Both the position numbers and the translations under genes were made by a program. A DNA stretch of 64,000 nt, from assembly GCA_030710605.1 (NCBI GenBank), contig CP092886.1, positions 56,416,885 to 56,480,884 on the forward strand, written 5' to 3'. How positions within the stretch are numbered: position 1 is the first letter of the stretch; the number at the start of each line of letters is the position of its first letter. This document shows positions 25,270-55,185 of the stretch, piece after piece. Origin of the DNA: Cordylochernes scorpioides. Taxonomy: Eukaryota > Arthropoda > Arachnida > Pseudoscorpiones > Chernetidae. Below the pieces are notes generated by a model, which made no database searches, was not told the DNA's origin, and was given only the letters and a program-made list of their open reading frames with translations.

Positions 25270-26278
25270 ATTCACACATATGTACAATACCCATTGTTTC
25301 CTCTTCTCTCCACTCATCGTGTGTATACACGTGAACAATATTATCTCTCTAATCATGCATACCGTGTTCATCACACGTGAAAAATGGTATCTCTCTACTC
25401 ATTCGTACCGTATTTATCACTAAGTGAGTGGTATTTCTCTCCACTCATACATACCGTGTTGTGATCACTAGTGAACAATATTATCTCTCTACTCATACAT
25501 ACCGTGTTTATTACTAAGTGAGTGGCATTTCTCTCTACTCATACATACCGTGTTGTGATCACTATGAACAATATTATCTCTCTACTCATACATACCGTGT
25601 TGTGATCACTAGTGAAAAATATTATCTCTCTACTCATACATACCGTGTTTATTACAAAGTGAGTGGTATTTCTCTCTACTCATACATACCGTGTTGTGAT
25701 CACTATGAACAATATTATCTCTCTACTCATACATACCGTGTTTATTACTAAGTGAGTGGTATTTCTCTCTACTCATACATACCGTGTTGTGATCACTAGT
25801 GAACAATATTATCTCTCTACTCATACATCCCGTGTTTATTACTAAGTGAGTGGCATTTCTCTCTACTCATACATACCGTGTTGTGATCACTAGTGAACAA
25901 TATTATCTCTCTACTCATACATCCCGTGTTTATTACTAAGTGAGTGGTATTTCTCTCTACTCATACATACCGTGTTGTGATCACTAGTGAACAATATTAT
26001 CTCTCTTCTCATACATACCGTGTTTATTACTAAGTGAGTGGTATTTCTCTCTACTCATACATACCGTGTTGTGATCACTATGAACAATATTATCTCTCTA
26101 CTCATACATACCGTGTTTATTACTGAGTGAGTGGCATTTCTCTCTACTTATACATATCGTGTTGTGATTACTAGTGAACAATATAATTTCTCAACCCATA
26201 CATACGGTATTCATCACAGGTAAACAACATTATCTCTCTACTCATACACACCGTGTCGATCACTAGTTAGTGACGGTA
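25270..26278. repeat. Two-monomer (A/B) minisatellite, ~94-bp dimer
   Basis: Alternating ~48-bp A units ('gtgttgtgatcactagtgaa...tatctctctactcatacatacc') and ~46-bp B units ('gtgtttattactaagtgag...tttctctctactcatacatacc') share their 3' halves and differ in their 5' halves. Most A units carry the palindrome TCACTAGTGA. There are about ten dimers, with degenerate units at both edges. Confidence 0.85.
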
Positions 26279-29485: not shown

Positions 29486-29945
29486 CAATTATTTCTTAAA
29501 CTTCAGAAATTAATGTATTCATAGTTAACTCGATTCGGTGTAGATTGGATTGGCAGTTTTTTATTCCAGCATTTATAACTTTTTTTTCTGGTTTGAATTA
29601 TGATTTTTCACACGAATAATTAGTTCGTATCGGGTCTTTGAGCATTAGATACGGTGGAATTATGTTGTTTTCTTAGGCTAGAAGTCGAATTGTAGAACTT
29701 CTGTGCTTCAGACTAAAACCGTTTCTGTCTTGATGCAATGCTGGACGCATGTTGGTTATAAGGAGAACAGGTGAGCGTTTGTAACCAATCTGTGTTTGCG
29801 GCATAGACATATTGGAGCTACACTAGTAGTTATGGTCTGAGACCAATTACCTATGGCAGCAGGATCAATTTTTTCGTTACTCCAAACACTTTGATAGAAA
29901 TATATGTAGTTCACACTGGTAATTGAACCAGTTGGCCTGGTATTC

Positions 29946-30185
29946 TTGACCATTATTCTAGGGGGCATTTTCCAACAGGATAACGCTCATCCTCATACCG
30001 CTGCTGTCACCCAACGTACTCTACAGAATGTCGACATGTTGCCTTGGCCGGCAATACCACCAGATATTTCTTCCATAGAGCGCATAGGGGACATTATTGG
30101 TTGTCATCCCCATCCACCGCAAGCAGGTACCATTGCTGATTTGACTGATTCAGTGCAACAAGCATGGAAGGCCATCCAAAACTAA
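29946..30185 (+). pseudogene. Tc1-like transposase C-terminal fragment
   Basis: 79 codons: 'IFQQDNAHPHTAAVTQRTLQ' holds the second catalytic Asp, and PPDISSIERIGD holds the final Glu, with two residues fewer than the usual spacing. The N-terminal domain and first Asp are missing. The sequence is truncated upstream near 29945. The inverted copy is at 63688-63927 with two residue changes. Confidence 0.8.
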
Positions 30186-30469
30186 CATACGGCACCTCAT
30201 GCATTGCTAATCGTGACAACTACAGTGGTCATTAATGTACCACCGTTTCACATTTTAAATTACTTTTCTAGAGCTTCATTTAACATGTGTCCTTGAAACT
30301 TTAATTAAATAATTGTGTTATCTAGACAAATACTTTGCCCGAATTTCATTCCTTCAAAATATATTTTTTGTTGGTGTTGTGGTACTTTTTTTCTGTCAGA
30401 GTATATTCTGTATAGAGTGCTGTATATGATGACGCTCCACACATATAAATCATTTATACCATTTCACCG

Positions 30470-31230
30470 TTAGAGCGCTGAATGCGATGTTTACCCTCAG
30501 TTCCTGCCGACATCTGTGCGAGGGCACGGAGAAAGGCATAAGTACATCTCTCTATCTGCCTGGTAGGGCAACCCTCAAGGGTTCTCCCAATCAATCTCTA
30601 CATGGAGCATATAGTTGTCTTCCCGAAATTTTAAACTTTTTAGAATCCAACACATCCAAGGTAAATGATTTTCAATAAAATAAGGTAAATACGATACATA
30701 AAATAAAATTTAATAAGAAAAAATAAATTAATAATAAAAAAACAAGGTAGTTACACCCATTCACCTAGCGTAGCTGGGGCCAATGTAGGAAGCCAATATT
30801 TAGAGTCGGTAATTAAACTGTGCGCTACGTCTGTCATATTGGCTCTGATTAAATTGATGGACCACGGCGGGTTGTTAAATTAGGGCCGTCGCGTCATTAA
30901 CGCCGGACGGGCCTGAGGCTAAAAAAGTAGGACCCGCATTTATCATCATTTCTGTCAGGGCCCTGATCGATGGGCGGAGGCTCATTGGTCATAAAGTGCG
31001 GCTACCGCTGGCCAGCCAAGTGATACCTGCGCCTACTGCACGAATTAAAGAGCAAAACTATTGTCTGCGCAGCTACTAACCTTCGACAATCCGCTATTTA
31101 TAAATCATGCTGCGAGTTTCTAAATGCCTTGCATGTCCTGAGAACGTCATTAAGTAGAAGCCTACTAGGATGCTCCACTAGCTTGAAGGTCCGAGAGACG
31201 AAATAATCAAGTCGTGATGTTGAAATGTTT
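30470..31230. other. Non-repetitive, GC-richer block conserved between arms; possible regulatory DNA
   Basis: 30770-31200 is unlike the surrounding AT-rich repeats and carries several TAAT/ATTA and GATAA-like cores. It is ~99% identical (by eye, about four changes) to 62690-63120 in the other arm. No ORF is conserved. It may be a cis-regulatory or conserved non-coding element. A 63-codon frame at 30487-30678 has no known motif. Confidence 0.3.
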
Positions 31231-31307
31231 TTAAACAAGATTTACGAGGGGTTAAATGATAGTAAGTATAAATAATGGTAGGGCACAATTTGGATTATAG
31301 ATTATAA

Positions 31308-31469
31308 ACACAAGGTAATAAGACAAAAGTACTGAATGTTATCCAAATAAATAAATAGTGTGTGACGTTTTGGCAACATTCAGTACTTTTGTCTGAAGAT
31401 GGTAACAACACTGTTACCGAAACGTCACACACTATTTATTTATTTGGATTTGGTCTTATTACCTTGTGT
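31308..31469. mobile_element. Penelope-like foldback end with hammerhead-like core (left arm)
   Basis: Ends are inverted complements (ACACAAGGTAATAAGAC ... GTCTTATTACCTTGTGT). Inside, the plus strand reads CTGAAGA, a perfect 7-bp hairpin GGTAACA-acac-TGTTACC, then GAAACGTC. This is the CUGANGA-stem II-GAAA order of minimal hammerhead ribozymes known from Penelope-like elements. It is 62 bp shorter than the copy in the other arm. Confidence 0.6.
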
Positions 31470-31628
31470 TTAACTATCAATAAATATCTTTGAAAACACC
31501 TTTAGCCTTATATACAGATTCTCTCAAGAGGTACAGGAGAGGAGAGGGAGAAAGAAATTATATGAAGTAAATAAAGGAAAATACAGGCTATAGCCATTCT
31601 CCTACTTTCCTTAAAAAAAAAAATAAAG

Positions 31629-31716
31629 TCCCTCGACCCGGATTTGAACTAGCAACCAAAGGATTACCATTAACATATCTACCAGTCCTGCTATCTACAA
31701 AATGAGCTATTGAGAG
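31629..31716 (-). pseudogene. tRNA-Tyr-like sequence, probably a pseudogene (left arm)
   Basis: On the minus strand: AATAGCTCATTTTGTAGA (D-arm and A box, as in tRNA-Tyr), AGGACTGGTAGA around a GTA anticodon, an ~11-nt interruption where tRNA-Tyr introns sit, ATCCT closing the stem, and AGTTCAAATCC (B box). The T-stem has two mismatches and the acceptor stem has one mismatch and a G-T pair, so function is doubtful. It is also present at 62100-62187. Confidence 0.5.
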
Positions 31717-32117
31717 CTAACGATAGACTAAATGTATTGTCTAAAAGTGCTTTGGATAGTCTTTCAACAAGCTGTATTTTATGTTTGGGATATTTTTAAG
31801 TAACGTTGCTTCCTATAAGAAGATCATGTTTGATATAAATCACTAAAAACGTTAAAAACTTAGCTTTAAACTGGAGCTTTAAACTAAGCTTAAAACTGGA
31901 CATTTGAAAGATTTTCGATAAAATTCAGTAATACCATCGTTTTCTCATAATAAAAAAAAAGTAGTTTACATCATTGAGAGGACACACGTAGAAGTAAATA
32001 TATATATATTGAACTGAGAGAGATATATATTTATTATAAATCAAGTTTCAATAATAATAATTTTTAATCATTAAATACAGATTAAATAAGTATATACTGT
32101 AGTCTCTCTAAAATTGT

Positions 32118-32190
32118 GGTCCTGTGGCCTAATGGATATGGCGTTGGCCTCCGGAGCCAAAGATTGTGGGTTCGATTCCCATCAGGATCG
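32118..32190 (+). tRNA. tRNA-Arg (CCG), left arm copy
   Basis: Full cloverleaf: acceptor GGTCCTG/CAGGATC (one G-T), D arm GCC...GGC, anticodon stem TTGGC/GCCAA with loop CTCCGGA (anticodon CCG, reading CGG), 5-nt variable loop, T stem GTGGG/CCCAT with loop TTCGATT, and discriminator G. A run of ten T follows directly as a polymerase III terminator. No intron. The identical gene lies in the other arm. Confidence 0.93.
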
Positions 32191-32388
32191 TTTTTTTTTT
32201 AATTTTTTTTTTATTTAAACAGTAAATTATATATATAATAGCTTCATTTATTATACATGTATGTTATATACTCACTATTATTGATATATTTTCATATACA
32301 AATATGTATATATATAAAGATTCATTTATTATTATAAAGTTTCGTTTTATTATTTTAAATATAATAAATAGGTTAAACATTTTTTTTT

Positions 32389-32590
32389 AAAAGGGCAGTC
32401 AAGTCGGTGGATGAGAGGGTAACACGCTCGATTCCCGACAGTCATGAACCGGGATTGAATCCCGCGTTTAGTTTTGTTTAATATGTGAATAACATTCACA
32501 TATATTATTCACTGTTTCAATTATCATGAACTAGGTTGCTCTTGCTGAGCGGTACCTATTTATGTGAATTTGAACCAAAAGGGCAGTCAA
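32389..32590 (+). repeat. SINE insertion present only in the left arm
   Basis: Target duplications aaaagggcagtcaa at 32389-32402 and 32577-32590 bracket a 174-bp SINE with a tRNA-like head (GTCGGTGGATGAGAGGGTAA ... GGGATTGAATCCCGC). The matching place in the other arm (~61440-61455) holds a single uninterrupted aaaagagcagtcaa, the empty site. The head resembles that of the SINE at 27456, while the body differs. Confidence 0.9.
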
Positions 32591-32859
32591 TTAATAAAAT
32601 CTCTTTTAAAGCCCAATCGGAGGGAAAATGTATTACATTTCACTTTTAAAAGTTCGGTGACAGCCCCGCCCTGGATCGAGTGAACTCCCGTGACCTTGAC
32701 CTTTCCCTCATAGCGCCCCCTCCCACCTGCAATAATAAAAAAGCGTTCTCTAGTAATTTTCACATGTCAGTACAAATTATGATGACATTCTGAAAGAGAT
32801 TTTCAAAGAGCGTTGCACGCGAAAAAGCTGAACTTAAAAAATAAAGTAGACCAATTTTA

Positions 32860-32961
32860 ATAACGAAAATATTCAAAAAGGATAAGTTTCTTTATTTGAA
32901 AAATAAATTCGAGCTTTCGGGCGTAAGCTGCCCTTCTACAGGAATAATTATAATCATTTTA
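32860..32961 (-). mobile_element. ~100-bp Penelope-type insert present only in the left arm
   Basis: The other arm reads straight through (...ccaattttataaacgc..., ~61168-61182), while this arm has ~102 extra bases between near-repeats attttaataa and attttataaa. On the minus strand the insert carries CTGTAGA, a GGGC...GCCC hairpin and GAAAGCTCG, the PLE box arrangement with the first box altered from CUGANGA. No protein is encoded. Confidence 0.6.
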
Positions 32962-34017
32962 TAAACGCTAAAGCTTCAAACGCGCTTGCGGCCCGAAAAA
33001 TATCAGCAGTGTATAGACTAAATAAGACAATTTAGTGAACAAGGACGTAATCTCCTAAAGAAAGGTTCAATCAATATGTAAGCAGACAAAATCCCCAAAG
33101 TGGACATTCTTCAGGAAAAGTTGCTAACACATAAAGGGTGAATCACTAAGACAAAAATTACATAACGCAAACATTCCACTTATAGAAACCTGGTGCTCTG
33201 CCAGATTCTAGGCTTTGAATACTCTGCGGCCACACAGCTGTAAAGTCACTTTCTACCTAAGCTCTCCGCTCGCTCGCACATAATCAAGAAACCTCTAGGG
33301 CACAAATTAGTTGTATAGCCGTTAGTAAACAGAAGTGGCTTTTTAGGCGATGTAGATCTTGCAATCAACATGTCACGAATCATTGCGTGCGTGCGAAGAT
33401 GCGTGCGTATAGACTAAGGCCTCATTACACTTCCTACTAAATAAAATAGAACTGAAGATGCTTAAAGCAATATTATGCTGAACGCTTTGGAAATGATTGA
33501 CGCGTTCTCTTTACAGAAACTACAACTTCTGAGCGTTTTAAACAAATTACTCTCTTTTTAGAAATCAAAAAGAAAAATTATATTTTCAGTTGCCACTGGA
33601 GTCTAGAATTTCATGAAGTTCACATTTAGAAAAATCTCACAATCTCGTGAAAAAGTTGCGATCATCGGAGATGGTGTGAAAGAGCGGGATGGGGATTCAA
33701 TAGAAATTGCTAATCCGAAAATAAAGAGATAAAAACAAATATTAAAAATACTTGCCAATTTTCTCTAGAAGTTTCAAACTTTATGGCTTCCAAAAGAAGG
33801 CTATTTCAGCGTTTCAGATTTTAGCCATTCAAACATAAAAGTTCTCTACCAATTGTTGCTAAACGCACGGAAAATAAGGTGAAGGTTATGTGATTTTATG
33901 TAAATAAAAGTATATATGCAAAAGATGGCCACAGAAAAATCATATTTTATATTAAAAATGAATATTTTATATATTCTGCATTCCCTCAAATAACAAATTA
34001 CACAAACACTTTTCTTT

Positions 34018-34290
34018 TCTCAACACGCCCGGGTTGTCAGAGCAACAAAAGGAAATTTGTCACTTTCTTTGTCGAGGAAGTTTGCATATGGCTATTTTCA
34101 GGAAGCAGAAGACTACTTCTATATATCAGAAGGCGCTGCATTTAGAATGACGGCGGACCAACAACGTCCTACTTTCCCAGTGTTCCATGAAAGAGATGGC
34201 TTCCAGAGAAAGAAAGAAGCCATAAAATATTTTTTCCTATCATCAACATTCAATAAGTTTTATCGTTCTGTGCTTTCACACAGAGCATAG
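34018..34290 (+). CDS. Open frame of ~90 codons kept in both arms, unknown
   Basis: The frame is open from just after an upstream stop to 34290. From 34057 it differs from its inverted copy (59836-60069) by one amino acid (Thr/Pro) and two silent changes in 77 codons. No Met precedes residue 40, so as drawn it would need a splice acceptor (a pyrimidine-rich ...ttgtcag lies at ~34040). I recognise no domain. The low divergence may only reflect recent common origin of the arms. Confidence 0.25.
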   Translation, partial: SQHARVVRATKGNLSLSLSRKFAYGYFQEAEDYFYISEGAAFRMTADQQRPTFPVFHERDGFQRKKEAIKYFFLSSTFNKFYRSVLSHRA

Positions 34291-34539
34291 GAAGTATTAT
34301 ATCAAAACTATCATAGAGAGGATTAGAAATAAATGAATGATAATATTTGTAAAATGAGGTTTAGGATAAGAATTTGAAACAAATTTATAATATATTTATT
34401 TCAACACACAAAACGCGATATCCCGGCTAGAGATAATTGCGTCGATTTACATTTTTAAACAGAAACAGTTATAGACATATTATACAATAAAAAATAATTT
34501 TTAAAAAATAGGAACAATAATATATTTTAGGAACCTAAA

Positions 34540-34891
34540 CCTTTCAGGTTAGAAAGATAATCATAAATATATTTACAAAAATAGTTAAATCTCTGACAAT
34601 TATCTCTAGTATTTACAAATTTATATAGATTTACAACATTATTAACTGTCTGTTGTCTAGCGGTAAAGAAGAGTGGACATTCAAGCAGTAGGTGTCTCGA
34701 GTACTGGATTTCCTTGCCACAGTGACAGCTAGAGGCCTCAACCGCTCCAATTGTTGATAAAAATCCCTTGAAATTTCCGTGGTTCGTTGTAAACTGGGTA
34801 TTATAAAAATTGGAACGGAAAAATGATGGAATTCCAAACGGGGAAAAGTTTTGGAATGTTTCGGTTTTTTTTTTAGAAATAAATCATCCAT
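34540..34891 (-). pseudogene. LINE ORF2 C-terminal zinc-knuckle fragment (left arm)
   Basis: A minus-strand frame overlapping the open stretch MDDLFLKK... reads SSCHCGKEIQYSRHLLLECP, then FFTARQQTVNNVVNLYKFVN. The C-x-C-G...H-x4-C-P pattern is the C-terminal knuckle of R1/RTE-like LINE proteins. It is not closely related to the (TTG)n LINEs here. The other arm copy (59244-59600) has a small deletion through the knuckle. Confidence 0.55.
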
Positions 34892-35519
34892 TTTTGCACT
34901 TAAAAATGATCTAATTTTATTTATAATCGTAAGTAAATATGAGCAGAGATTCGAGAAGAGAGTAGGCTCTTATTCCTCTTTAAAATCTTGACTGGTGAGT
35001 TCTAAGCCTTATACAGTATTTAATTTCTGTGTCAAATTTGTAAAGCTCCCGTTCTTCGGTTGAATAATTTTGCGACGAAGACGAAAACTTTTAATAACGA
35101 CGTATATATGCATGTATCATATGTAAATATGTTTGTTTTACTCTTTCATTTTAATCATTTTGTTTTCTTTGGACTTATCATACATATCCGTGGCTTTCGT
35201 GCGTGAATCCATGTATAACACTTTGTCTTTATAAAGGCTTTTTGTGTATGCGTGTGTCAGTTTTAAGCCTTTTGCCTTTTTGAGCCTTGAGAGAGCCGGC
35301 ATTGGTTTAAATACCTCGGTTGTACCAAGCTATAGGCTTTGTTCGCATGTTCGATTTTTGAATAGAAAAGGAAAACGAAAGTGAAATCTCTCTTGTCTTT
35401 CTTATGACTGTGTGTCGAACTTGACCAATATGATCGGTATTCTAACTGGCATTGAACTAGGGAATACTTTGAAAGATTTCGTGAAGTGGGGACCACTTGG
35501 CAGATGGTGGCAAACATCG

Positions 35520-35810
35520 ATCCGTCAAGCCCTGATCAATATCCGTGTTTCGCCGGCTAGGTGCACACGATGACTGTCGTTAGACAAATTAAGGTTTTAA
35601 TTGATTTTTTCTACGGGCAGTTGTAGCCGTTTCCCACACGTTAAAAAAGTTGGTGTTGGCGCCATTCAATTGTTTCGGGCGAAGTGGCGACTGATTGGCG
35701 GTCGTCACGCACGAGCCTGGCTAATTATCTAACAATTAGTGTACGGCAGGCAGCATATCAGCCCAGCGCCTCGCCGATGTCGGTAACGTTCTTTCCTTCC
35801 CTACTGTCCA
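35520..35810. other. Conserved non-coding block between arms
   Basis: By eye this block shows no difference from 58335-58620 over ~280 bp, although arms elsewhere differ by a few percent. It includes TTAATTG, CTAATTATCTAACAATTAG and GGCGCCATTC. There is no conserved ORF. Possible regulatory element. It also borders the 41-bp minisatellite. Confidence 0.3.
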
Positions 35811-35814
35811 GCCG

Positions 35815-37125
35815 CTAGTGGTAGCGCAGAGCTTTCTCTCTCCCTTTATTGTTCGCTCAGCGTTAGTAGCACAGAACTTTCTATTGCCTGGTCAGAATTA
35901 GTTGCACAGAGCTTTCTCTATTTATTGTCCAGTCAGTGTTAGTAGCACAGAGCTTTCGCTCTTTATTGTCCGGTCAGTGTTAGTAGCACAGAGCTTTCTC
36001 TCTTTATTGTCCGGTCAGTGTTAGTAGCACAGAGCTTTCTTTCTCTATCTTATTGTCCACTCGGTGTTAGTAGCACATAGCTTTCTCTCTTTATTGTCCG
36101 GTCAGTGTTAGTAGCACAGAGCTTTCTCTCTTTATTTGTCCGGTCACTGTTAGTGGCACAGATCTTTCTCTATTTATTGTCCGGTCAGTGTTAGTCTCAC
36201 AGAGCTTTCTCTCTTTATTTGTCCGGTCACTGTTAGTGGCACAGATCTTTCTCTATTTATTGTCCGGTCAGTGTTAGTCTCACAGAGCTTTCTCTCTTTA
36301 TTGTCCGGTCAGTGTTAGTAGCACAGAGCTTTCTCTCTTTATTGTCCGGTCAGTGTTAGTCTCACAGATCTTTCTCTATTTATTGTCCGGTCAGTGTTAG
36401 TCTCACAGAGCTTTCTCTCTTTATTGTCCGGTCACTGTTAGTAGCACAGAGCTTTCTCTCTTTATTTGTCCGGTCAGTGTTAGTAGCACAGATCTTTCTC
36501 TATTTATTGTCCGGTCAGTGTTAGTCTCACAGATCTTTCTCTCTTTATTGTCCGGTCAGTGTTAGTAGCACAGAGCTTTCTCTCTTTATTGTCCGGTCAG
36601 TGTTAGTCTCACAGAGCTTTCTCTCTTTAGTGTCCGATCAGTGTTAGTAGCACAGAGCTTTCTCTCTTTATTGTCCGGTCAGTGTTAGTCTCACAGAGCT
36701 TTCTCTATTTATTGTCCGGTCACTGTTAGTAGCACAGAGCTTTCTCTCTTTATTGTCCGGTCTGTGTTAGTAGCACAGAGCTTTCTCTCTTTATTGTCCG
36801 GTCAGTGTTAGTAGCACAGAGCTTTCTCTATTTATTGTCCGGTCAGTGTTAGTAGCACAGAGCTTTCTCTCTTTATTGTCCGGTCAGTGTTAGTAGCGCA
36901 GAGCTTTCTCTCTTTATTGTCCGGTCAGTGTTAGTAGCACAGAGCTTTCTCTATTTATTGTCCGGTCAGTGTTAGTAGCACAGAGCTTTCTCTCTTTATT
37001 GTCCGGTCAGTGTTAGTAGCACAGAGCTTTCTCTCCTTATTGTCCGGTCAGTGTTAGTAGCACAGAGCTTTTGCTCTTTATTGTCCGGTCAGTGTTAGTA
37101 GCGCAAAGCTTTCTTTTTTCTATTT
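35815..37125. repeat. 41-bp minisatellite, left arm array
   Basis: About 31 copies of 'gagctttctctctttattgt' + 'ccggtcagtgttagtagcaca'. Variants with 'gtctcacagatctttctcta' alternate with the basic unit in the first half. The other arm carries an array of similar length, but with a different set of variants. Confidence 0.92.
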
Positions 37126-37399
37126 GTATCTAGTGATGTTAAGGGCGAAAAGCTTTTTCCAGCTTTATTATTCAATCAGTGTTGGTAGTGCAGAGCTTTC
37201 TTTCTTTCTCTACATATATTGGTTGAGCAGAACGTTATTTCTCTTTCTATACCGCGCTTGGTAGAGTGGAACTTTCTTTCACTCCCTGCCGCTGATAGAA
37301 GCACAGAGCTTTATTCTCACGGTCCAATTCACTGTCCAGGTGATTTCAATATCGTAGAGGGTTTTTCTCTCCATAACATCCAATGCAAGATAGCTGCGT

Positions 37400-38975
37400 A
37401 AAGCCAGCGTCTATCCATGCCCCATACAGTCTGGTAGTGCAAGTGAGATCTCCATCTAACATTTAAGCTGGAGTAGTTAGGTTAGTTAACTTTCCTGCCG
37501 TCATATATTGGTGTAGTTGTGTGCGGTCCTCTCTGAGATCAATATTTGTCATCACTCAAAATTTCTTTTCGCCAAAGGTCTGTCAGAAAATACACAACTA
37601 GGTCAACATTATTTCTCTGATTGATTTTGACAATTGCCAAAATTCTTCCGATTCTATTGTATTAAAATGTTATGTGTGTAAAGTTTATATAATAATTAAT
37701 TGAAGGAAATTTTCTGGGAAGATATTGACCTATAAAAAAGAAAGGGAACACCGCACGTCAAAATTAGCGCTAAAGCTAAGTGCCATCTTAATGACCCACT
37801 CCGGGTGGTCTCCAGGTGGGTGTTCTGAATTCGCCAAAGCTGGTGTTGCAGCTTTGTCACCGGCCTTTATGTTGCAGCGAGGCTCAATGAATTATGTTAT
37901 TTTTAGCATCTAGACATCAGCACATCATCCAGACAAAAAAATTATATATATAACATAATGTTTAGGTCTGAATTTGCCAGTACTTGGTTTTGTGGCTCAT
38001 TCTTTTTCATCACTAGTAAAGTTTTTACTAGGGTGATGTACAGTGCATCGTTCTGATGCACGTTTAAAGGGAGAGGTGACTCTTTTGATGTATATTTTTA
38101 TAACACAAAGTTTCAGGAGGATGATATTTATGTACCAAAAGCGGCACATCTCCCTGTTTGGTAAATTCGACCGATTTCATAACCCCTCTCGTAGTATGTG
38201 ATAGGGGAAACTGGAAACATTTTTAGATTCAATGCCCAAAAGTTATTCGAAACAAGTGTCAAGTATAGATAAAATAAACATATTGCCCAAATACTGTTAT
38301 TCGATAGATATGATATAAATATTGAAAAGGTAAGGACTAATATATTTTTATTCTTATTTATGATTACATGCTTTTATGTTATTTTCTATTGTTTTCAAAT
38401 GAAAAGGGGTCCCCTCTCACTCTTATCAATTGTCACACAAGACACACTATGCGTGCCATTTATTTTATCTCCTCGCGAAGCGCTAAATGTCCAACCATCT
38501 GAAGAAGGAATGGCGAAGAAGACCCGATGGATGAACGCCTCTGTATTCTGGGCCGTGCGACTTGTTTTCTTGGTATTGCCAGAGAATTGGTGGGGTTTGA
38601 GCATCGGTAACATTGGACTGCAAAGTTGGCGGTCTAATGAACACATTCAATCATTTGATTGAGAATTGATTATTATAAACCAATAGAATTAATATAAAAT
38701 AATTCTAATATATGTGTAAAATAAGAGATAAGATATTATTAAAACTAAATATCTATCTTCTTCAACTTGCAATAGGCGAGAGGGAAAGATACTAAAGCCA
38801 TGGAATTATTATTGGAATTCTATTGCATCACTCTAATTAAAGAATTCTCACTTTCAAGGCTAAAATACCGCTATGAGAATGATAAATAAATCTTAAGAAA
38901 CCTTGAAAATAATCTAAAAGACGAGATTTGATCGAGGCCATGATATATAGAAGTTGACATCAATTTATTACAGCA
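37400..38975. other. Unassigned stretch of the left arm
   Basis: Contains the interspersed repeat shared with 6490-6925 (37940-38200). An open frame at 38360-38662 (100 codons, ...KKTRWMNASVFWAVRLVF...) is mostly preserved at 55488-55781 in the other arm but matches no family I know. No start context or splice signal supports expression. Confidence 0.4.
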
Positions 38976-39256
38976 TATAAGCGCGCGCCATCTATATTCA
39001 AATTTATGAACTATTTACGCGCGTAGGTTTCTTTTGTGTAAATAAACAAGTCCCTACTGCCCTTACTACCATTATAATATATTGGTAGGGCCTAGCTCAT
39101 CAGTGGTGAACTCCCCTAGCAGTTTCGCCAGTTCTAAATATGGATTAAACTGGCGAACCCGTTGGGAGTGTTCAGCACTGATGAGCCAGGCCATCCCAAT
39201 AGTTTATCATTGCAGTAGGGGAAAAGTAGGGAATTGATAATTTTAATTTAAAAAAA
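38975..39256. mobile_element. Foldback family A copy that abuts the 70-bp satellite
   Basis: Leader ATAAGCGCGCGCCATCT, left arm (...TTTACGCGCGTAGGTTTCTTTTGTG), two inverted cores (GAAACTGCTAGGG... with CTGATGAGCTAGG; and GAACCCGTTGGGAGTG with CTGATGAGCCAGG) and a right arm ending ...CTATGCGTGTGAATACAG. The right arm runs without a break into the first satellite monomer. Confidence 0.75.
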
Positions 39257-42200
39257 CTATGCGTGTGAATACAGTAGTTTATAAAATAAGTATATAAACT
39301 GCCGGGTCTTGTGAATAAAATAAACCTATGCGTGTGAATACAGTAGTTTATAAAATTGAGAATATAAACTGCCGGGTCTTGTGAATAAAAGAAACCTATG
39401 CGTGATTACACAGAAGTTTATAAAATTGAGTATATAAACTGCCGGGTCTTGTGAATAAAAGAAACCTATGCGTGTGAATACAGTAGTTTATAAAATAGAG
39501 TATATAAACTGCCAGGTCTTGTGAATAAAAGAAACCTATGCGTGTGAATACAGTAGTTTATAAAATAGAGTATATAAACTCCCGGGTCTTGTGAATAAAG
39601 GAAACCTATGCGTGTGAATACAGTAGTTTATAAAATAGAGTATATAAACTGCAAGGTCTTGTGAATAAAGGAAACCTATGCGTGTGAATACAGTAGTTTA
39701 TAAAATAGAGTATATAAACTGCCGGGTCTTGTGAATAAAAGAAACCTATGCGTTTGAATACAGTAGTTTATAAAATAAGTATATAAACTGCCGGGTCTTG
39801 TGAATAAAATAAACCTATGCGTGTGAATACAGTAGTTTATAAAATTGAGAATATAAACTGCCGGGTCTTGTGAATAAAAGAAACCTATGCGTGATAACAC
39901 AGAAGTTTATATAATTGAGTATATAAACTGCCGGGTCTTGTGAATAAAAGAAACCTATGCGTGTGAATACAGTAGTTTATAAAATAGAGTATATAAACTG
40001 CCGGGTATTGTGAATAAAAGAAACCTATGCGTGTGAATACAGTAGTTTATAAAATAGAGTATATAAACTGCCGGGTCTTGTGAATAAAGGAAACCTATGC
40101 GTGTGAATACAGTAGTTTATAAAATGGAGTATATAAACTGCCAGGTCTTGTGAATAAAGGAAACCTATGCGTGTGAATACAGTAGTTTAGAAAATAGAGT
40201 ATATAAACTGCCGGGTCTTGTGAATAAAAGAAACCTATGCGTGTGAATACAGTAGTTTATAAAATAGAGTATATAAACTGCCAGGTATTGTGAATAAAAG
40301 AAACCTATGCGTGTGAATACAGTAGTTTATAAAATAAGTATATAAACTGCCGGGTCTTGTGAATATATGAAACATATGCTTGTGAATACAGTAGTTTATA
40401 AAATAGAATATATAAACTGCCGGGTATTGTGAATAAAATAAACCTATGCGCGTGAATACAGTAATTTGGAAAATATAGTATATAAACTGCCGGGTCTTGT
40501 GAATAAATGAAACCTATGCGTGTGAATATAGTAGTTTATAAAATAGAGTATATAAACTGCCGGGTATTGTGAATAAAAGAAACCTATGCGTGTGAATACA
40601 GTAGTTTATCAAATAGAGTATATAAACTGCCGGGTCTTGTGAATAAATGAAACCTATGCGTGTGAATATAGTAGTTTATAAAATAGAGTATATAAACTGC
40701 CGGGTCTTTTGAATAAATTAAACCTAAGTGTGTGAATCCAGTAGTTTATAAAATAGAGTATATAAACTGCCAGGTCTTGTGAATAAAAGAAACCTATGCG
40801 TGTGAATACAGTAATTTGGAAAATATAGTATATAAACTGCCGGGTCTTGTGAATAAAGGAAACCTATTCGTGTAAACACAGTAGTTTAAAAATTTGAGTA
40901 TTTAAACTGCCGGGTCTTGTGAATAAATGAAACCTATGCGTGTGAATACAACAGTTTATGAAATAGAGTTTATAAACTGCCGGGTCTTGTGAATAAAATA
41001 AACCTATGCGTGTGAATACAGTAGTTTATAAAATTGAGAATATAAACTGCCGGGTCTTGTGAATAAAAGAAACCTATGCGTGATAACACAGAAGTTTATA
41101 AAATTGAGTATATAAACTGCCGGGTCTTGTGAATAAAAGAAACCTATGCGTGTGAATACAGTAGTTTATAAAATAGAGTATATAAACTGCCAGGTCTTGT
41201 GAATAAAAGAAACCTATGCGTGTGAATACAGTAGTTTATAAAATAGAGTATATAAACTGCCGGGTCTTGTGAATAAAGGAAACCTATGCGTGTGAATACA
41301 GTAGTTTATAAAATAGAGTATATAAACTGCCAGGTCTTGTGAATAAAGGAAACCTATGCGTGTGAATACAGTAGTTTATAAAATAGAGTATATAAACTGC
41401 CGGGTCTTGTGAATAAAAGAAACCTATGCGTGTGAATACAGTAGTTTATAAAATAAGTATATTAACTGCCGGGTCTTGTGAATAAAATAAACCTATGCGT
41501 GTGAATACAGTAGTTTATAAAATTGAGAATATAAACTGCCGGGTCTTGTGAATAAAAGAAACCTATGCGTGATAACACAGAAGTTTATATAATTGAGTAT
41601 ATAAACTGCCGGGTCTTGTGAATAAAAGAAACCTATGCGTGTGAATACAGTAGTTTATAAAATAGAGTATATAAACTGCCAGGTCTTGTGAATAAAAGAA
41701 ACCTATGCGTGTGAATACAGTAGTTTATAAAATAGAGTATATAAACTGCCGGGTCTTGTGAATAAAGGAAACCTATGCGTGTGAATACAGTAGTTTATAA
41801 AATGGAGTATATAAACTGCCAGGTCTTGTGAATAAAGGAAACCTATGCGTGTGAATACAGTAGTTTATAAAATAGAGTATATAAACTGCCGGGTCTTGTG
41901 AATAAAAGAAACCTATGCGTGTGAATACAGTAGTTTATAAAATAGAGTATATAAACTGCCAGGTATTGTGAATAAAAGAAACCTATGCGTGTGAATACAG
42001 TAGTTTATAAAATAAGTATATAAACTGCCGGGTCTTGTGAATATATGAAACATATGCTTGTGAATACAGTAGTTTATAAAATAGAATATATAAACTGCCG
42101 GGTATTGTGAATAAAATAAACCTATGCGCGTGAATACAGTAATTTGGAAAATATAGTATATAAACTGCCGGGTCTTGTGAATAAATGAAACCTATGCGTG

Positions 42201-45200
42201 TGAATATAGTAGTTTATAAAATAGAGTATATAAACTGCCGGGTATTGTGAATAAAAGAAACCTATGCGTGTGAATACAGTAGTTTATCAAATAGAGTATA
42301 TAAACTGCCGGGTCTTGTGAATAAATGAAACCTATGCGTGTGAATATAGTAGTTTATAAAATAGAGTATATAAACTGCCGGGTCTTTTGAATAAATTAAA
42401 CCTAAGTGTGTGAATCCAGTAGTTTATAAAATAGAGTATATAAACTGCCAGGTCTTGTGAATAAAAGAAACCTATGCGTGTGAATACAGTAGTTTATAAA
42501 ATAGAGTATATAAACTGCCGGGTCTTTTGAATAAAGGAAACCTATTCGTGTGAACACAGTAGTTTAAAAATTTGAGTATTTAAACTGCCGGGTCTTGTGA
42601 ATAAATGAAACCTATGCGTGTGAATACAACAGTTTATGAAATAGAGTTTATAAACTGCCAGGTCTTGTGAATAAAAGAACCTATGCGTGTGAATACAGTA
42701 GTTTATAAAATAGAGCAAATAAACTGCCGAGTCTTGTGAATAAAAGAAGCTTATGCGTGTGAATACAGTAGCTTATAAAATAGAGTATATAAACTGCCGG
42801 GTCTTTTGAATAAATTAAACCTATGTGCGTGTGAATCCAGTAGTTTATAAAATAGAGCATATAAACTGCCGAGTCTTGTGAATAAAAGAAGCTTATGCGT
42901 GTGAATACAGTAGCTTATAAAATAGAGTATATAAACTGCCGGGTCTTTTGAATAAATTAAACCTATGCGTGTGAATCCAGTAGTTTATAAAATAGAGTAT
43001 ATAAACTGCCAGGTATTGTGAATAAAATAAACCTATGCGTGTGAATACAGTAGTTTATAAAATTGAGAATATAAACTGCCGGGTCTTGTGAATAAAAGAA
43101 ACCTATGCGTGATAACACAGAAGTTTATATAATTGAGTATATAAACTGCCGGGTCTTGTGAATAAAAGAAACCTATGCGTGTGAATACAGTAGTTTATAA
43201 AATAGAGTATATAAACTGCCAGGTCTTGTGAATAAAAGAAACCTATGCGTGTGAATACAGTAGTTTATAAAATAGAGTATATAAACTGCCGGGTCTTGTG
43301 AATAAAGGAAACCTATGCGTGTGAATACAGTAGTTTATAAAATGGAGTATATAAACTGCCAGGTCTTGTGAATAAAGGAAACCTATGCGTGTGAATACAG
43401 TAGTTTAGAAAATAGAGTATATAAACTGCCGGGTCTTGTGAATAAAAGAAACCTATGCGTGTGAATACAGTAGTTTATAAAATAGAGTATATAAACTGCA
43501 AGGTATTGTGAATAAAAGAAACCTATGCGTGTGAATACAGTAGTTTATAAAATAAGTATATAAACTGCCGGGTCTTGTGAATATATGAAACATATGCTTG
43601 TGAATACAGTAGTTTATAAAATAGAATATATAAACTGCCGGGTATTGTGAATAAAATAAACCTATGCGCGTGAATACAGTAATTTGGAAAATATAGTATA
43701 TAAACTGCCGGGTCTTGTGAATAAATGAAACCTATGCGTGTGAATATAGTAGTTTATAAAATAGAGTATATAAACTGCCGGGTATTGTGAATAAAAGAAA
43801 CCTATGCGTGTGAATACAGTAGTTTATCAAATAGAGTATATAAACTGCCGGGTCTTGTGAATAAATGAAACCTATGCGTGTGAATATAGTAGTTTATAAA
43901 ATAGAGTATATAAACTGCCGGGTCTTTTGAATAAATTAAACCTAAGTGTGTGAATCCAGTAGTTTATAAAATAGAGTATATAAACTGCCAGGTCTTGTGA
44001 ATAAAAGAAACCTATGCGTGTGAATACAGTAATTTGGAAAATATAGTATATAAACTGCCGGGTCTTGTGAATAAAGGAAACCTATTCGTGTAAACACAGT
44101 AGTTTAAAAATTTGAGTATTTAAACTGCCGGGTCTTGTGAATAAATGAAACCTATGCGTGTGAATACAACAGTTTATGAAATAGAGTTTATAAACTGCCG
44201 GGTCTTGTGAATAAAATAAACCTATGCGTGTGAATACAGTAGTTTATAAAATTGAGAATATAAACTGCCGGGTCTTGTGAATAAAAGAAACCTATGCGTG
44301 ATAACACAGAAGTTTATAAAATTGAGTATATAAACTGCCGGGTCTTGTGAATAAAAGAAACCTATGCGTGTGAATACAGTAGTTTATAAAATAGAGTATA
44401 TAAACTGCCAGGTCTTGTGAATAAAAGAAACCTATGCGTGTGAATACAGTAGTTTATAAAATAGAGTATATAAACTGCCGGGTCTTGTGAATAAAGGAAA
44501 CCTATGCGTGTGAATACAGTAGTTTATAAAATAGAGTATATAAACTGCCAGGTCTTGTGAATAAAGGAAACCTATGCGTGTGAATACAGTAGTTTATAAA
44601 ATAGAGTATATAAACTGCCGGGTCTTGTGAATAAAAGAAACCTATGCGTGTGAATACAGTAGTTTATAAAATAAGTATATAAACTGCCGGGTCTTGTGAA
44701 TAAAATAAACCTATGCGTGTGAATACAGTAGTTTATAAAATTGAGAATATAAACTGCCGGGTCTTGTGAATAAAAGAAACCTATGCGTGATAACACAGAA
44801 GTTTATATAATTGAGTATATAAACTGCCGGGTCTTGTGAATAAAAGAAACCTATGCGTGTGAATACAGTAGTTTATAAAATAGAGTATATAAACTGCCAG
44901 GTCTTGTGAATAAAAGAAACCTATGCGTGTGAATACAGTAGTTTATAAAATAGAGTATATAAACTGCCGGGTCTTGTGAATAAAGGAAACCTATGCGTGT
45001 GAATACAGTAGTTTATAAAATGGAGTATATAAACTGCCAGGTCTTGTGAATAAAGGAAACCTATGCGTGTGAATACAGTAGTTTATAAAATAGAGTATAT
45101 AAACTGCCGGGTCTTGTGAATAAAAGAAACCTATGCGTGTGAATACAGTAGTTTATAAAATAGAGTATATAAACTGCCAGGTATTGTGAATAAAAGAAAC

Positions 45201-46648
45201 CTATGCGTGTGAATACAGTAGTTTATAAAATAAGTATATAAACTGCCGGGTCTTGTGAATATATGAAACATATGCTTGTGAATACAGTAGTTTATAAAAT
45301 AGAATATATAAACTGCCGGGTATTGTGAATAAAATAAACCTATGCGCGTGAATACAGTAATTTGGAAAATATAGTATATAAACTGCCGGGTCTTGTGAAT
45401 AAATGAAACCTATGCGTGTGAATATAGTAGTTTATAAAATAGAGTATATAAACTGCCGGGTATTGTGAATAAAAGAAACCTATGCGTGTGAATACAGTAG
45501 TTTATCAAATAGAGTATATAAACTGCCGGGTCTTGTGAATAAATGAAACCTATGCGTGTGAATATAGTAGTTTATAAAATAGAGTATATAAACTGCCGGG
45601 TCTTTTGAATAAATTAAACCTAAGTGTGTGAATCCAGTAGTTTATAAAATAGAGTATATAAATTGCCAGGTCTTGTGAATAAAGGAAACCTATTCGTGTG
45701 AACACAGTAGTTTAAAAATTTGAGTATTTAAACTGCCGGGTCTTGTGAATAAATGAAACCTATGCGTGTGAATACAACAGTTTATGAAATAGAGTTTATA
45801 AACTGCCAGGTCTTGTGAATAAAAGAACCTATGCGTGTGAATACAGTAGTTTATAAAATAGAGCAAATAAACTGCCGGGTCTTTTGAATAAATTAAACCT
45901 ATGTGCGTGTGAATCCAGTAGTTTATAAAATAGAGCATATAAACTGCCGAGTCTTGTGAATAAAAGAAGCTTATGCGTGTGAATACAGTAGCTTATAAAA
46001 TAGAGTATATAAACTGCCGGGTCTTTTGAATAAATTAAACCTATGCGTGTGAATCCAGTAGTTTATAAAATAGAGTATATAAACTGCCAGGTCTTGTGAA
46101 TAAAAGAAACCTATGCGTGTGAATACAGTAGTTTATAAAATAGAGTATATAAACTGCCGGGTCTTTTGAATAAATTTAACCTATGCGTGTGAATCCAGTA
46201 GTTTATAAAATAGAGTATATAAACTGCCAGGTCTTTTGAATAAATTAAACCTATGCGTGTGAATCCAGTAGTTTATAAAATAGAGTACATAAACTGCCAG
46301 GTCTTGTGAATAAAAGAAACCTATGCGTGTGAATACAGTAGTTTATAAAATAGAGTATATAAACTGCCGGGTCTTGTGAATAAATGAAACCTATGCGTGT
46401 GAATACAGTAGTTTATAAAATAGAGTATATAAACTGCCGGGTCTTGTGAAAAAAAGAAACCTATGCGTGTGAATACAATAGTTTATAAAATAGAGTATAT
46501 AAACTGCCGGGTCTTGTGAATAAAATAAACCTATGCGTGTGAATACAGTAGTTTATAAAATAGATCATATAAACTGCCGGGTATTGTGAATAAAAGAAAC
46601 CAATGCGTGTGAATACAGTAGCTTATAAATATAGAGTATATAAACTGA
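39257..46648. repeat. ~70-bp satellite array, about 105 monomers, with higher-order structure
   Basis: The consensus monomer reads gaaacctatgcgtgtgaata / cagtagtttataaaatagag / tatataaactgccgggtctt / gtgaataaaa. Variants (a 'gataacacagaag' type, an 'aatttggaaaatatag' type, a 'gaatatatgaaacatatgct' type) recur in fixed order. The last marker lies at 40361, 42039, 43579 and 45257, giving spacings of 1678, 1540 and 1678 bp, i.e. blocks of ~24 or 22 monomers. About 50 of the 70 bases align with the terminal arm of the foldback element at 38975-39256. Minus-strand frames through it are artefacts. Confidence 0.95.
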
Positions 46649-46654
46649 CATCTT

Positions 46655-47280
46655 GAGATGGAATGAAGTGTAAGTCTATCACAGAAAGAGTGGAAAGAGA
46701 TAGGGGAGGGAGTTCGATACCAGAGCAGATCAAATGCGGATTTGGTGTCTAGACCTCGTAATACTTTTTTGATGGCGGCCGACCACCATCAATATTCGAA
46801 TGGCTCAAGCCTCGCCCGTCAACCTGTATAATCTCTGACCGCCGTCGCTGGATTAACAACTGCTTGGAGCCCTGCTGAATAGTGGCGATTCCTTAAGTAA
46901 AATTCACACTTCTTTCTTTATTGGATACAGTTTATAAAAATATCCTCTATTATTTACAAATTATTATTTATATATGTGTGTGGGGGTTCGGAAATTCAAT
47001 AAAAATAATACAAAATATCATGAACATGCGTGAGCAATGATAATTATTGCCCCAAAATAAAATCTATACATTGTTTCACACAATATGACCTCAAGTTTCA
47101 TAAAAATATCACACAATCTTCTTATACCAAATATTACACACACCTTTTCTTTAGATCATTTTGTATACGTTCTTCTACATTATAGTGTAAGTACATGTTC
47201 TGATACTATATTTCTTCTAAGCAATATATTACTGCTCTACACTTCATATATCTTTCTCTTCTGCAAAATATTACCTCTTA
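46655..47280. other. Unassigned stretch
   Basis: 46660-46900 is moderately GC-rich and not repeated elsewhere in the window. 46900-47280 is AT-rich. No gene signal. Confidence 0.4.
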
Positions 47281-47282
47281 TA

Positions 47283-48394
47283 CGAGGGCCATCCAATAAA
47301 TAAGTTTCCCTATTTTTTAACAAATAAACGACATCATTTACAATTATGCAGTTATTTTATTTTCATTATACAACTCATAGACTACCTTTCTAAATAATCA
47401 CCATTTCTGTCCAAACATTTTTGGTACAGTTGTAGCAATTTTTAGATACCACTGTTGTACCAAGCCGTGTCCTGTCTTCGTAGCCAGTGGTTCACCTCCG
47501 CCTGCACTTCGTCATCATTCGCAAAGTGCTTGCCTCCAAGGTGCCACTTGAGTGCTGGATAAAGATGGAAGTCGCTTGGGGCAATTCCGGAGAATAAGGT
47601 GGATGTGTGAAAATTTCCCATTTGAAGTTTTCCATAGCCATAACTTTGCCTGCAGAGATTGTGACCTTCGCCTTTTTTGGTGCACTTTCCTCAGGCTTCT
47701 TCCACACCATGCTTTGTCGTTTTGTTTCTGGAGTTGAATGATGTACCCAGCTTTCATCTCCAGTGACAATACTGGAAAACAGTTGATCTCCATCTCTTTG
47801 ATGCATTTCCAGGAAAGCTCGGGCTGCCTCCATCCGTTGGACCCATCTTGTGCAGACTTTGAGAAAATTCAAAACATCTGACATGATTGTTCCAATCGAA
47901 GAGCGTCTAATTTCGTTTCCAGGAGGCAGTCGAATAATTATTTCGTCAATGGTGACTCGGCGATCTGCTTCCACCACATTCCGAACAGCAGCAACGGCTG
48001 CATTGTCCGTGGCAGTAACGGGGCTGCCGCTTCGCTCGTCATCATGCACGTTTTGCCGTCCTTCTAAGAACCATGAACGCCATCGGCGAACCATTTGGAT
48101 GCTCATACATTCTTCACCATACACTGACACTGAATTGCGATGAATATTGACCGCAGTTTAATTTTTCGCCGTGAAAAAACGAATTACAGAACGGAGTTCG
48201 CAAGTGGACACGTTCACCAGTGGTAGCTCCATGGAAACTGAAGCGCTACGGACTTGCGCGTACGAGTAGCGTGATTTTGAAGGTCACCAGCTTCCAACGC
48301 ATCCTAGTGACCATTTATTCTATACTAACTAATTTTTACAACGTTTTGTTCGCAGAAAAAAAAATAGGGACACTTATTTATTGGATGGCCCTCG
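47283..48394 (-). mobile_element. mariner element, internally deleted
   Basis: ~36-bp terminal inverted repeats beginning CGAGGGCCATCCAATAAATA are found at both ends. The left flank is TA; the right flank is TT, a probable mutated TA. The total of 1112 bp is ~200 bp less than an autonomous element because part of the transposase is deleted. A different subfamily from the mariner at 14039. Confidence 0.88.
47440..48150 (-). pseudogene. mariner transposase, internal deletion and frameshift
   Basis: The N-terminal helix-turn-helix (MSIQMVRRWRSWFLEGRQNV, then DERSGSP) and first Asp (TGDESWVHHSTPETKRQS) are intact in a 212-codon frame. After ...KKAKVTISAGKVMA the frame jumps directly to FKWEIFTHPPYSPE, deleting the stretch that carries the second catalytic Asp (HDNARPH region). 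A further frameshift just after YSPEL moves the end (SDFHLYPALKWHLGGKHF) to another frame. It cannot be catalytically active. Confidence 0.85.
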
Positions 48395-49478: not shown

Positions 49479-49480
49479 AT

Positions 49481-49734
49481 TGTAGCGTAGAAATCAAGCC
49501 TTGAAATATCCTAAGATGTAAAAGTATTTATTGATGACGTCACAGCGACGAGTAGACAATTATTAACAGGTCAGCCCCAAAAACTATTTACAGCTAGAGA
49601 ATCTTAAGCAAGCAAGCAAAGAAATATTTTAAAGATGATTTCACAAATACAGATTAATATATACATTTTTAATCTGTTGAATATATTTTCATTGAATAAT
49701 ATTAAATTAAATAATAAAATATTTCTTCGTCACA
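49481..49734 (-). repeat. 3' LTR of the gag-only element
   Basis: 254 bp; matches 51232-51485 base for base as far as I can read. Confidence 0.92.
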
Positions 49735-51155: not shown

Positions 51156-51231
51156 AGAAGTTTCTTCTGGTTCAACAGAATCAATTTTTCTTAAATTTCT
51201 TAATGGGTATCGGTCCAGTCTCTCCACCAGT

Positions 51232-51485
51232 TGTAGCGTAGAAATCAAGCCTTGAAATATCCTAAGATGTAAAAGTATTTATTGATGACGTCACAGCGAC
51301 GAGTAGACAATTATTAACAGGTCAGCCCCAAAAACTATTTACAGCTAGAGAATCTTAAGCAAGCAAGCAAAGAAATATTTTAAAGATGATTTCACAAATA
51401 CAGATTAATATATACATTTTTAATCTGTTGAATATATTTTCATTGAATAATATTAAATTAAATAATAAAATATTTCTTCGTCACA
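51232..51485 (-). repeat. 5' LTR of the gag-only element
   Basis: 254 bp; the element is read from here on the minus strand. The primer-binding region after it begins ~CTGGTGGAGAGAC. Confidence 0.92.
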
Positions 51486-52213: not shown

Positions 52214-52489
52214 TATATATATATATACACTATATAATATTATATTATATATTCTTTTCTACACAATTTTACCTGCATATTTTATCTTCTAAACAATACT
52301 ATTCACGCCATCTTCCACACAATATTACACACAATCCCTCTTTTTATCCACACAATATTGTACAAAAGTTACCAAATTACCTAGTTCTTCTACACAATAT
52401 AGCCTACACCTTCTCTTCTGTCTGCATGCGCCTTCTTCTATAGAAAGTTACAACCAACTTCTTCCAACCAAGATTACATGCACTACATA

Positions 52490-52905
52490 TGAACAAGAAT
52501 ACAGGAACTCCATCTGAACAAGATTACGTGAACCTCTATCTGAACAATATTACGTGCACCTACCTCCATCTGAGCAAGAATACATGCACTTCCATATGAA
52601 CAAGAATACGTGCACCTCCATCTGAACAAGAATACGTACGCCTCCATCTGAACAAGATTACGTGCACCTCCATCTGAACAAGAGTACGCGCACCTCCATC
52701 TGAACAAGAGTACGCGCACCTCCATCTGAACAAGAATACGTACGCCTCCATCTAAACAAGATTACGTGCACCTCCATCTGAACAAGAATACGTGCACCTC
52801 CATCTGAACAAGAGTACGCGCACCTCCATCTGAACAAGATTACGTGCACCTCCATCTGAACAAGAATACGTGTACCTCCATCTGAACAAGATTACGTGCA
52901 TCTTC
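52490..52905. repeat. 26-bp minisatellite
   Basis: About 15 copies of 'cctccatctgaacaagaata' + 'cgtgca' with aa/ag/at and gtgc/gcgc/gtac variants. Since 26 is not a multiple of three, it yields 78-bp protein-level repeats in minus-strand frames, which are artefacts. Confidence 0.9.
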
Positions 52906-54859: not shown

Positions 54860-54959
54860 NNNNNNNNNNNNNNNNNNNNNNNNNNNNNNNNNNNNNNNNN
54901 NNNNNNNNNNNNNNNNNNNNNNNNNNNNNNNNNNNNNNNNNNNNNNNNNNNNNNNNNNN
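54860..54959. other. Assembly gap of exactly 100 N
   Basis: One hundred N, the conventional size for a scaffold gap of unknown length. The inverted arm starts at the very next base. Confidence 0.98.
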
Positions 54960-55185
54960 ATGGCCTGGCTCATCAGTGCTGAACACTCCTAACGGGTTCG
55001 CCAGTTTAATCCATATTTAGAACTGGCGAAACTGCTAGGGGGGTTCACCACTGATGAGCTAGGCCCTACCAATATATTATAATGGTAGTAAGGGCAGTAG
55101 GGGCTTGTTTATTTACACAAAAGAAACCTACGCGCGTAAATAGTTTATAAATTTGAATATAGATGGCGCGCGCTTATATGATGTA
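54960..55185. mobile_element. Foldback family A, copy truncated by the gap
   Basis: Inverse of 38975-39194: core with CTGATGAGCCAGG inverse, second core GAAACTGCTAGGGGGG, left arm and leader (ATGGCGCGCGCTTATATGAT at 55163-55182). The arm that grades into satellite on the other side is missing at the gap. Confidence 0.75.

Follow-up and report, generated by a model that had tools for sequence, protein, structure and literature searches.

The window analysed here, a stretch of 64,000 nucleotides from the pseudoscorpion Cordylochernes scorpioides (contig CP092886.1 of assembly GCA_030710605.1, positions 56,416,885 to 56,480,884, forward strand), contains a tandem array of a 70-bp unit that directly adjoins a short, palindromic inverted-repeat element. 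We consider it probable that the array is a single-locus minisatellite for which an arm of the adjoining element provided the seed, a piece of about 70 bp.

The element lies at positions 38968 to 39248 of the window (about 280 bp; the limits are approximate and come from its self-inverted match at 39012-39271, family alignments and a genome search). It has the long inverted repeats and the small middle that are expected of a terminal inverted repeat (TIR) transposon. Its left end is complete (ATTACAGCATATAAGCGCGCGCC) and its inverted left arm reads AAAAGAAACCTACGCGCGTAAATAGTTCATAAATTTGAATATAGA. The right arm (39145-39248, plus strand) has diverged from the left arm; it is in register with the first monomer of the array and merges with it. 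The array (39249-46647, plus strand) consists of 106 monomers, each about 70 bp long and arranged head to tail, of which 44 are distinct, as determined with Tandem Repeats Finder (TRF), wraparound alignment and a count of distinct sequences. The monomer sequence is AAAAGAAACCTATGCGTGTGAATACAGTAGTTTATAAAATAGAGTATATA.

Local alignment places the homology to the monomer in the left-arm stretch 38993-39054 (minus strand). With strict scoring, the inverted left arm and the monomer align over 48 positions, from AAAAGAAACCTATGCG to TAGTTTATAAAATAGAGTATA, with a score of 41, and none of 2000 dinucleotide shuffles reaches this score (maximum 29). With loose scoring, the alignment covers 61 of the 70 monomer positions, includes gaps of 6 and 5 bp and scores 26.5 (shuffle maximum 19, again 0 of 2000); it adds 13 bases, monomer GGGTCTTGTGAAT against arm GGGACTTGTTTAT. 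Identical bases number 46 of the 56 aligned in the left arm of the window element and 47 of 56 in a second assembled copy of that arm at 55100-55161 (plus strand), which matches the monomer better than any other arm. When the window outside the array was scored in tiles on both strands (3206 scores), these two left-arm copies were the top places, at 28.5 for the second copy and 26.5 for the first, and the third-best place reached 23.0 by way of a long gapped alignment. Homology beyond chance, as expected of an array derived from the arm of a transposable element (TE), is thus present.

The next question is which arm is the source. Relatives of the element occur on many contigs (4449 and 196 first-look candidates in two genome searches, with the best 40 scored in each), and the family analyses rest on the best-scoring copies from these searches rather than on a random sample. 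The 76 fetched copies (L009-L028, L041-L058 and L064-L101) supplied 152 strands, of which 125 were kept at an arm-template score of at least 22 and 27 were dropped; 11 window segments bring the comparison to 136 segments. The two assembled copies of the adjacent element's left arm rank 1 and 2 of these 136, followed by L090 (24.0), L017 (23.5) and L071 (22.0); the 134 segments other than the two left-arm copies have a mean of 13.9 (standard deviation 2.9). Among 1000 shuffled monomers compared with 127 arm segments, the best score anywhere was 22.5, so that none reached the observed best, and none reached the observed mean over the 127 segments either (14.12, against 9.27 with a standard deviation of 0.67 for the shuffled monomers). 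The consensus of 20 main-family copies matches the monomer near chance level, with 109 of 2000 shuffles reaching its score under strict scoring and 128 of 2000 under loose scoring. It was therefore rejected as the source of the unit, which is instead to be assigned to the window element's subfamily. Within the multiple alignment of arms, the motif GGGxCTTG of the monomer is common to both left-arm copies in the window and to L080; at this position, L093 and L094 read GGGACTTT and other arms vary (GGGAATTG, GGGAGTTG, GGAAATTG and so on). As judged from these alignments, the derivation of the monomer from an arm of the adjacent element's repeat family is supported. A separate observation is that L017 and L057 (C18:60700074 and C18:60713717) are similar element copies less than 14 kb apart, and that the right arm of L017 ranks fourth among all arms in its match to the monomer.

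Element and array are also physically joined, since the alignment between the right arm and the inverted left arm continues unbroken across monomer 1, as far as about position 39304. However, monomer 1 (39249-39315, plus strand) belongs to an interior variant class, as seen in the wraparound alignment and in the ranking of monomers by arm-likeness. From about its tenth base onward, it is the same variant as monomers 16, 40, 62, 78 and 86, a class with one base deleted at column 42, of which monomers 8 and 32 carry one further change each. The variant that follows monomer 1 is also the one that follows monomers 8, 32 and 78. Monomer 1 is thus a mature interior variant, and the edge of the array must have been homogenised or set by later exchange; the junction is not a frozen birth scene.

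The array has grown by blocks of 1.7 and 3.2 kb. Ungapped self-comparison shows that the block 39289-40998 (1710 bp, 24 monomers, plus strand) occurs again at 40967-42676 with a shift of 1678 bp and 99.1% identity, and that the block 39778-42609 (2832 bp, 46 monomers, plus strand) occurs again at 42996-45827 with a shift of 3218 bp and 99.0% identity. The two shifts overlap. Monomers that are 46 apart have a mean identity of 96.8%, with 35 of 60 pairs identical, as compared to 91.5% for adjacent monomers.

A 151-base monomer query against the 24 contigs of the 2.62-Gb assembly gave one first-look candidate, and the 46 matches listed were all inside the array; this type of search skips common words and scores only the best candidates. 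No second locus of the 70-bp array was found in this way, although unassembled arrays would escape detection. Arrays at more than one locus, which the word satellite implies, were thus not seen; the array is a single-locus minisatellite, and its single place in the assembly is consistent with an array born on the spot. To the right of the array, the flank 46648-47280 (plus strand) has no element terminus, and a genome search with it gave one candidate, namely itself.

What had been observed in the sequence of this locus is confirmed, and the original interpretation is supported in part. The strings quoted in the original prediction are present in the claimed order, and the right arm does run into monomer 1 without a visible junction. 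The claimed descent of the monomer from an arm of the family agrees with the shuffles and with the proposed comparison of monomers to family arms, in which both copies of the neighbour's left arm came out on top. It was also said that a monomer found genome-wide without a foldback neighbour and without significant alignment to the arms would refute the claim, and the sole array place found is the window locus. Other parts need to be revised. The term satellite is too strong for one locus, the expectation that junction monomers are the most element-like does not hold, and a direct view of the birth of the array is not what monomer 1 offers.

A tandem piece within another copy of the family has a bearing on how such an array may begin. 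TRF was run on all 76 fetched copies, and within the arm of L054 (C18:58554436-58555065), at L054:78-194, it detected a 36-bp unit, AAACAATTTTAAAGGCGTAAGATTCTTTTTGATATT, that is present in 3.2 copies. This unit scores 31.0 against the main-family arm and 17.0 against window positions 39009-39049, which fall inside the stretch that matches the monomer. Tandem duplication of this arm stretch thus recurs, and L054 is possibly an early stage of the same array-forming process. The L054 unit covers the interval between two successive occurrences of AAACNATTT in the arm, so that pre-existing short direct repeats may have guided the duplication. Tandem arm pieces are rare, with L054 being the one case in 76; L058 has two copies of a 48-bp piece of the core. 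A 73-bp array of four copies at L071:562-850 lies directly beside a family arm, and it was dropped as a second case because its unit is unrelated to the L071 arm, the window element or the monomer (302, 388 and 285 of 500 shuffles, respectively, reach its scores). Nor was the 70-bp unit found in the 10-kb neighbourhood of L034-L040, seven further copies.

Several observations count against an origin of the array from the adjoining element. For about nine of the 70 bases of the monomer no clear origin is apparent, and a further 13 are explained only by loose scoring; the multiple alignment of arms places these 13 bases elsewhere, which makes that part of the homology less certain. The adjoining right arm lacks GGGxCTTG, and the monomer is closer there to the left arm (right arm GGGAATTG, left arm GGGACTTG, second left-arm copy GGGGCTTG, monomer GGGTCTTG). 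When a doubled monomer was compared with longer segments, L082 (29.0) and L017 (26.0) scored near or above the window arm; these scores come from long gapped alignments that extend beyond the arm, and with a single monomer they are 18.5 and 23.5. Monomer 1, which might be expected to resemble the element most, ranks 106, 106 and 100 of 106 in arm-likeness against three arms. TRF detected no 70-bp array in any of the 76 fetched copies. The right flank, searched for an element terminus 3' of the array, gave a best match of only 8.5, at 113 bases in. Finally, TGACATC occurs in the left flank and in the right flank of the array and was considered as a target duplication around element and array together; it was discarded as being at chance level, because 10.5% of 20,000 random pairs share 7 or more bases.

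The sequence of events that we favour would be as follows. The inverted-repeat element would have come first. A subterminal piece of its arm would then have been tandemly duplicated, with the loss of 6 bp and the gain of CAGTA, perhaps by slippage or end joining while the palindrome was under replication or repair. Unequal exchange or block duplication would later have raised the number to 106 copies and overwritten the oldest copy at the junction. A different history, which we regard as unlikely, is that the unit came from another copy of the family and that the array formed elsewhere, at a place perhaps lost or unassembled, and was joined to the element by homologous recombination between arm and monomer. 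Such an exchange would also produce an unbroken in-register junction, and it would fit with the mature interior type of monomer 1 and with the different letters of the right arm and the monomer. However, no other array place was found in the assembly, none of the 136 segments is nearer to the monomer than the arm of the adjacent element, and L054 shows that an arm piece can undergo tandem duplication in place. The opposite direction, in which the element captured a tandem repeat and its arms are former satellite monomers, has nothing specific in its favour beyond the fact that homology alone is symmetric. It seems highly improbable, because the family arms are dispersed over many contigs and are also similar outside of the monomer-like stretch, whereas the array is confined to one place and its match rises above chance only against the subfamily to which the window copy belongs. 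A chance resemblance of two AT-rich sequences can practically be dismissed: the near-chance match of the 20-copy consensus might hint at it, but no shuffle in 2000 equalled the window arm, nor did any in 1000 equal the best or the mean score over 127 arms.

The assembly itself has to be considered as well. A scaffold gap of 100 N lies at 54860-54959, and an inverted second copy of the region begins exactly after it, inside the element. Window positions 29873-39194 pair with 64000-54960, and the pairing continues beyond the window (L029-L033 and L060-L063), to about window coordinates -28751 and 122630, i.e., about 68 kb on each side; collinear pieces longer than 600 bp are 88-98% identical, with unmatched stretches between them. 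The second copy is very likely an uncollapsed second haplotype that was misplaced beside the first one in the scaffold. Being probably an allele, it carries no information on a biological duplication. This break inside the element, together with the difficulty of assembling long arrays, might suggest that the length of the array and its junction result from misassembly at a collapsed or duplicated haplotype. We think this very unlikely, because the sequence passes from element to array without any N, both assembled left-arm copies agree, and the array contains several overlapping block shifts rather than a single repeated unit. An array seeded by the adjoining arm continues to be the explanation that we prefer.

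The nature of the source family is a separate issue. Thirty of the 38 main-family copies were analysed, eight having been dropped for weak ends. One end of the main family has about 27 bp (TGATGCATTAGCGCGCCATCTGTTATC) outside of the inverted repeat that are absent from the other end, and the weaker end scores 20 or less of 42 in 29 of the 30 copies; the exception, L025, looks like two elements side by side. The inverted repeat thus does not extend to both ends, as it would in a TIR transposon. Nor are the target duplications short and of fixed length: flanking direct repeats are 9-16 bp and variable, and they score at least 9 in 16 of the 30 copies, whereas among mismatched flank pairs 23 of 870 do so. 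These 16 copies include L055, which is a simple repeat. Variable duplications of about 10-20 bp, along with the absence of long terminal repeats and of coding capacity, would be expected of a SINE-like retroposon mobilised by a LINE, and the duplications seen in the main family may be of this kind. A TA target site, as in Tc1/mariner, was dropped once these longer duplications appeared. For the window element's own relatives, flanking repeats were present in two of eight loci versus one of 56 mismatched pairs, with only eight of 38 loci being usable and 30 dropped. The flanking duplications and the one-sided end of the main family would indicate that a target-primed retroposon is likelier than a foldback DNA transposon, and the main family (loci L009-L058) is possibly a hairpin retroposon family. 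The terminal arm of a foldback element, which had been named as the origin of the unit, is therefore not an apt description, also because the array unit is a subterminal arm piece that ends short of the outermost GCGCGC terminus.

The element also contains CTGATGAGCCAG and CTGGCGAAAC, two halves that are reminiscent of a hammerhead core. Neither 13 copies of the element nor window positions 38500-40500 gave a hit to an Rfam hammerhead family at E<=10, and order and spacing are, by eye, unlike a type I ribozyme, so that a hammerhead or retrozyme assignment was rejected. An intact CTGATGA, which is among the better-kept 7-mers, occurs in 18 of the 21 sequences aligned; CGAAAC is intact in 16 of 21 and is conserved no better than its surroundings. 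A more daring and improbable idea is that the neighbouring family could be a short palindromic retroposon of class I. Its RNA would fold into a near-perfect hairpin, while the element would insert by target-primed reverse transcription and contain two strand-paired, hammerhead-like core halves (CTGATGA-GCCAG and CTGGC-GAAAC). Its arms would repeatedly nucleate arrays on the spot (L054 and the window array) at palindrome replication or repair, the inverted copy of the left arm becoming the right-hand unit. A limited literature search found no palindromic retroposon by title, from which we claim no absence from print.

The window has some other features. A 61-bp array at 9911-10499 has 9.6 units, and its other assembled copy (L031:1057-2380) has 21.7, which would be a length polymorphism if the copies are alleles. 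Further arrays are present at 11162-12049 (73/55 bp), 25327-26267 (94 bp), 35839-37114 (41 bp, with an inverted copy at 57073-58298) and 52469-52900 (26 bp). Identical direct repeats of 255 bp (49480-49734 and 51231-51485) surround open reading frames (ORFs) of 181 and 237 amino acids that look gag-like by eye (CCHC knuckle), and this is perhaps a young gag-only long terminal repeat (LTR) element. The ORFs at 14312-15211 and 47492-48130 (both minus strand) presumably resemble mariner-type transposases.

The beginnings of arrays are usually guessed from mature satellites. The window locus unites a presumed source arm, an in-register junction and readable block duplications, and L054, where part of this arm stretch is present three times, may show an early stage. 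The family is also tractable for dating the growth of the array through alleles and sister species.

That an array can originate from the arm of a TE is an already published principle, of which the window locus would be a well-preserved case. The closest published case that we found appears to be Tetris and its TIR-220 array in Drosophila virilis, in which, according to the excerpts available to us (PMC4079207), the unit of a tandem array stems from an element that has long inverted arms. The unit shares 37 bp with the arm end, and there are short tandem duplications inside the arms. The repeats are a regular component of the arms and occur at many places, 610 of them on 69 contigs, and the target duplications measure 8-10 bp. 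The unit of the window array likewise has a stretch in common with an arm of its probable source, an element with long inverted arms, and L054 has the tandem duplication within an arm. Unlike Tetris as excerpted, the window has one long array with a 70-bp unit, the flanking duplications of the main family are 9-16 bp and its end is one-sided.

Other known systems share some of these properties. Xenopus has the Xstir satellite, derived from Xmix, which the passages seen of two reviews (PMC12628747 and PMC9659126) list as a class II miniature inverted-repeat transposable element (MITE), along with further arrays derived from TIRs and MITEs. Like Xstir as described there, the window array would derive from a short inverted-repeat element, by way of its TIR or an internal part, and it forms an element-array composite; unlike the class II Xmix, the main family of the window element looks like a retroposon. 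More generally, these passages list MITEs and Tetris under class II, as opposed to the retroposon-like main branch of the likely source's family. The animal non-LTR retrozymes, as outlined in part of another paper (PMC7229834), are short low-GC repeats with target duplications longer than 4 bp and strongly self-paired RNA. The window element resembles them in these three respects and in its CTGATGAGCCAG and CTGGCGAAAC; it differs from that outline in having no Rfam hammerhead match and in that the repeated unit is a piece of an arm rather than the whole element. The window case differs from these systems in being confined to a single locus, in its short unit and in having a source family that is probably of the retroposon type.

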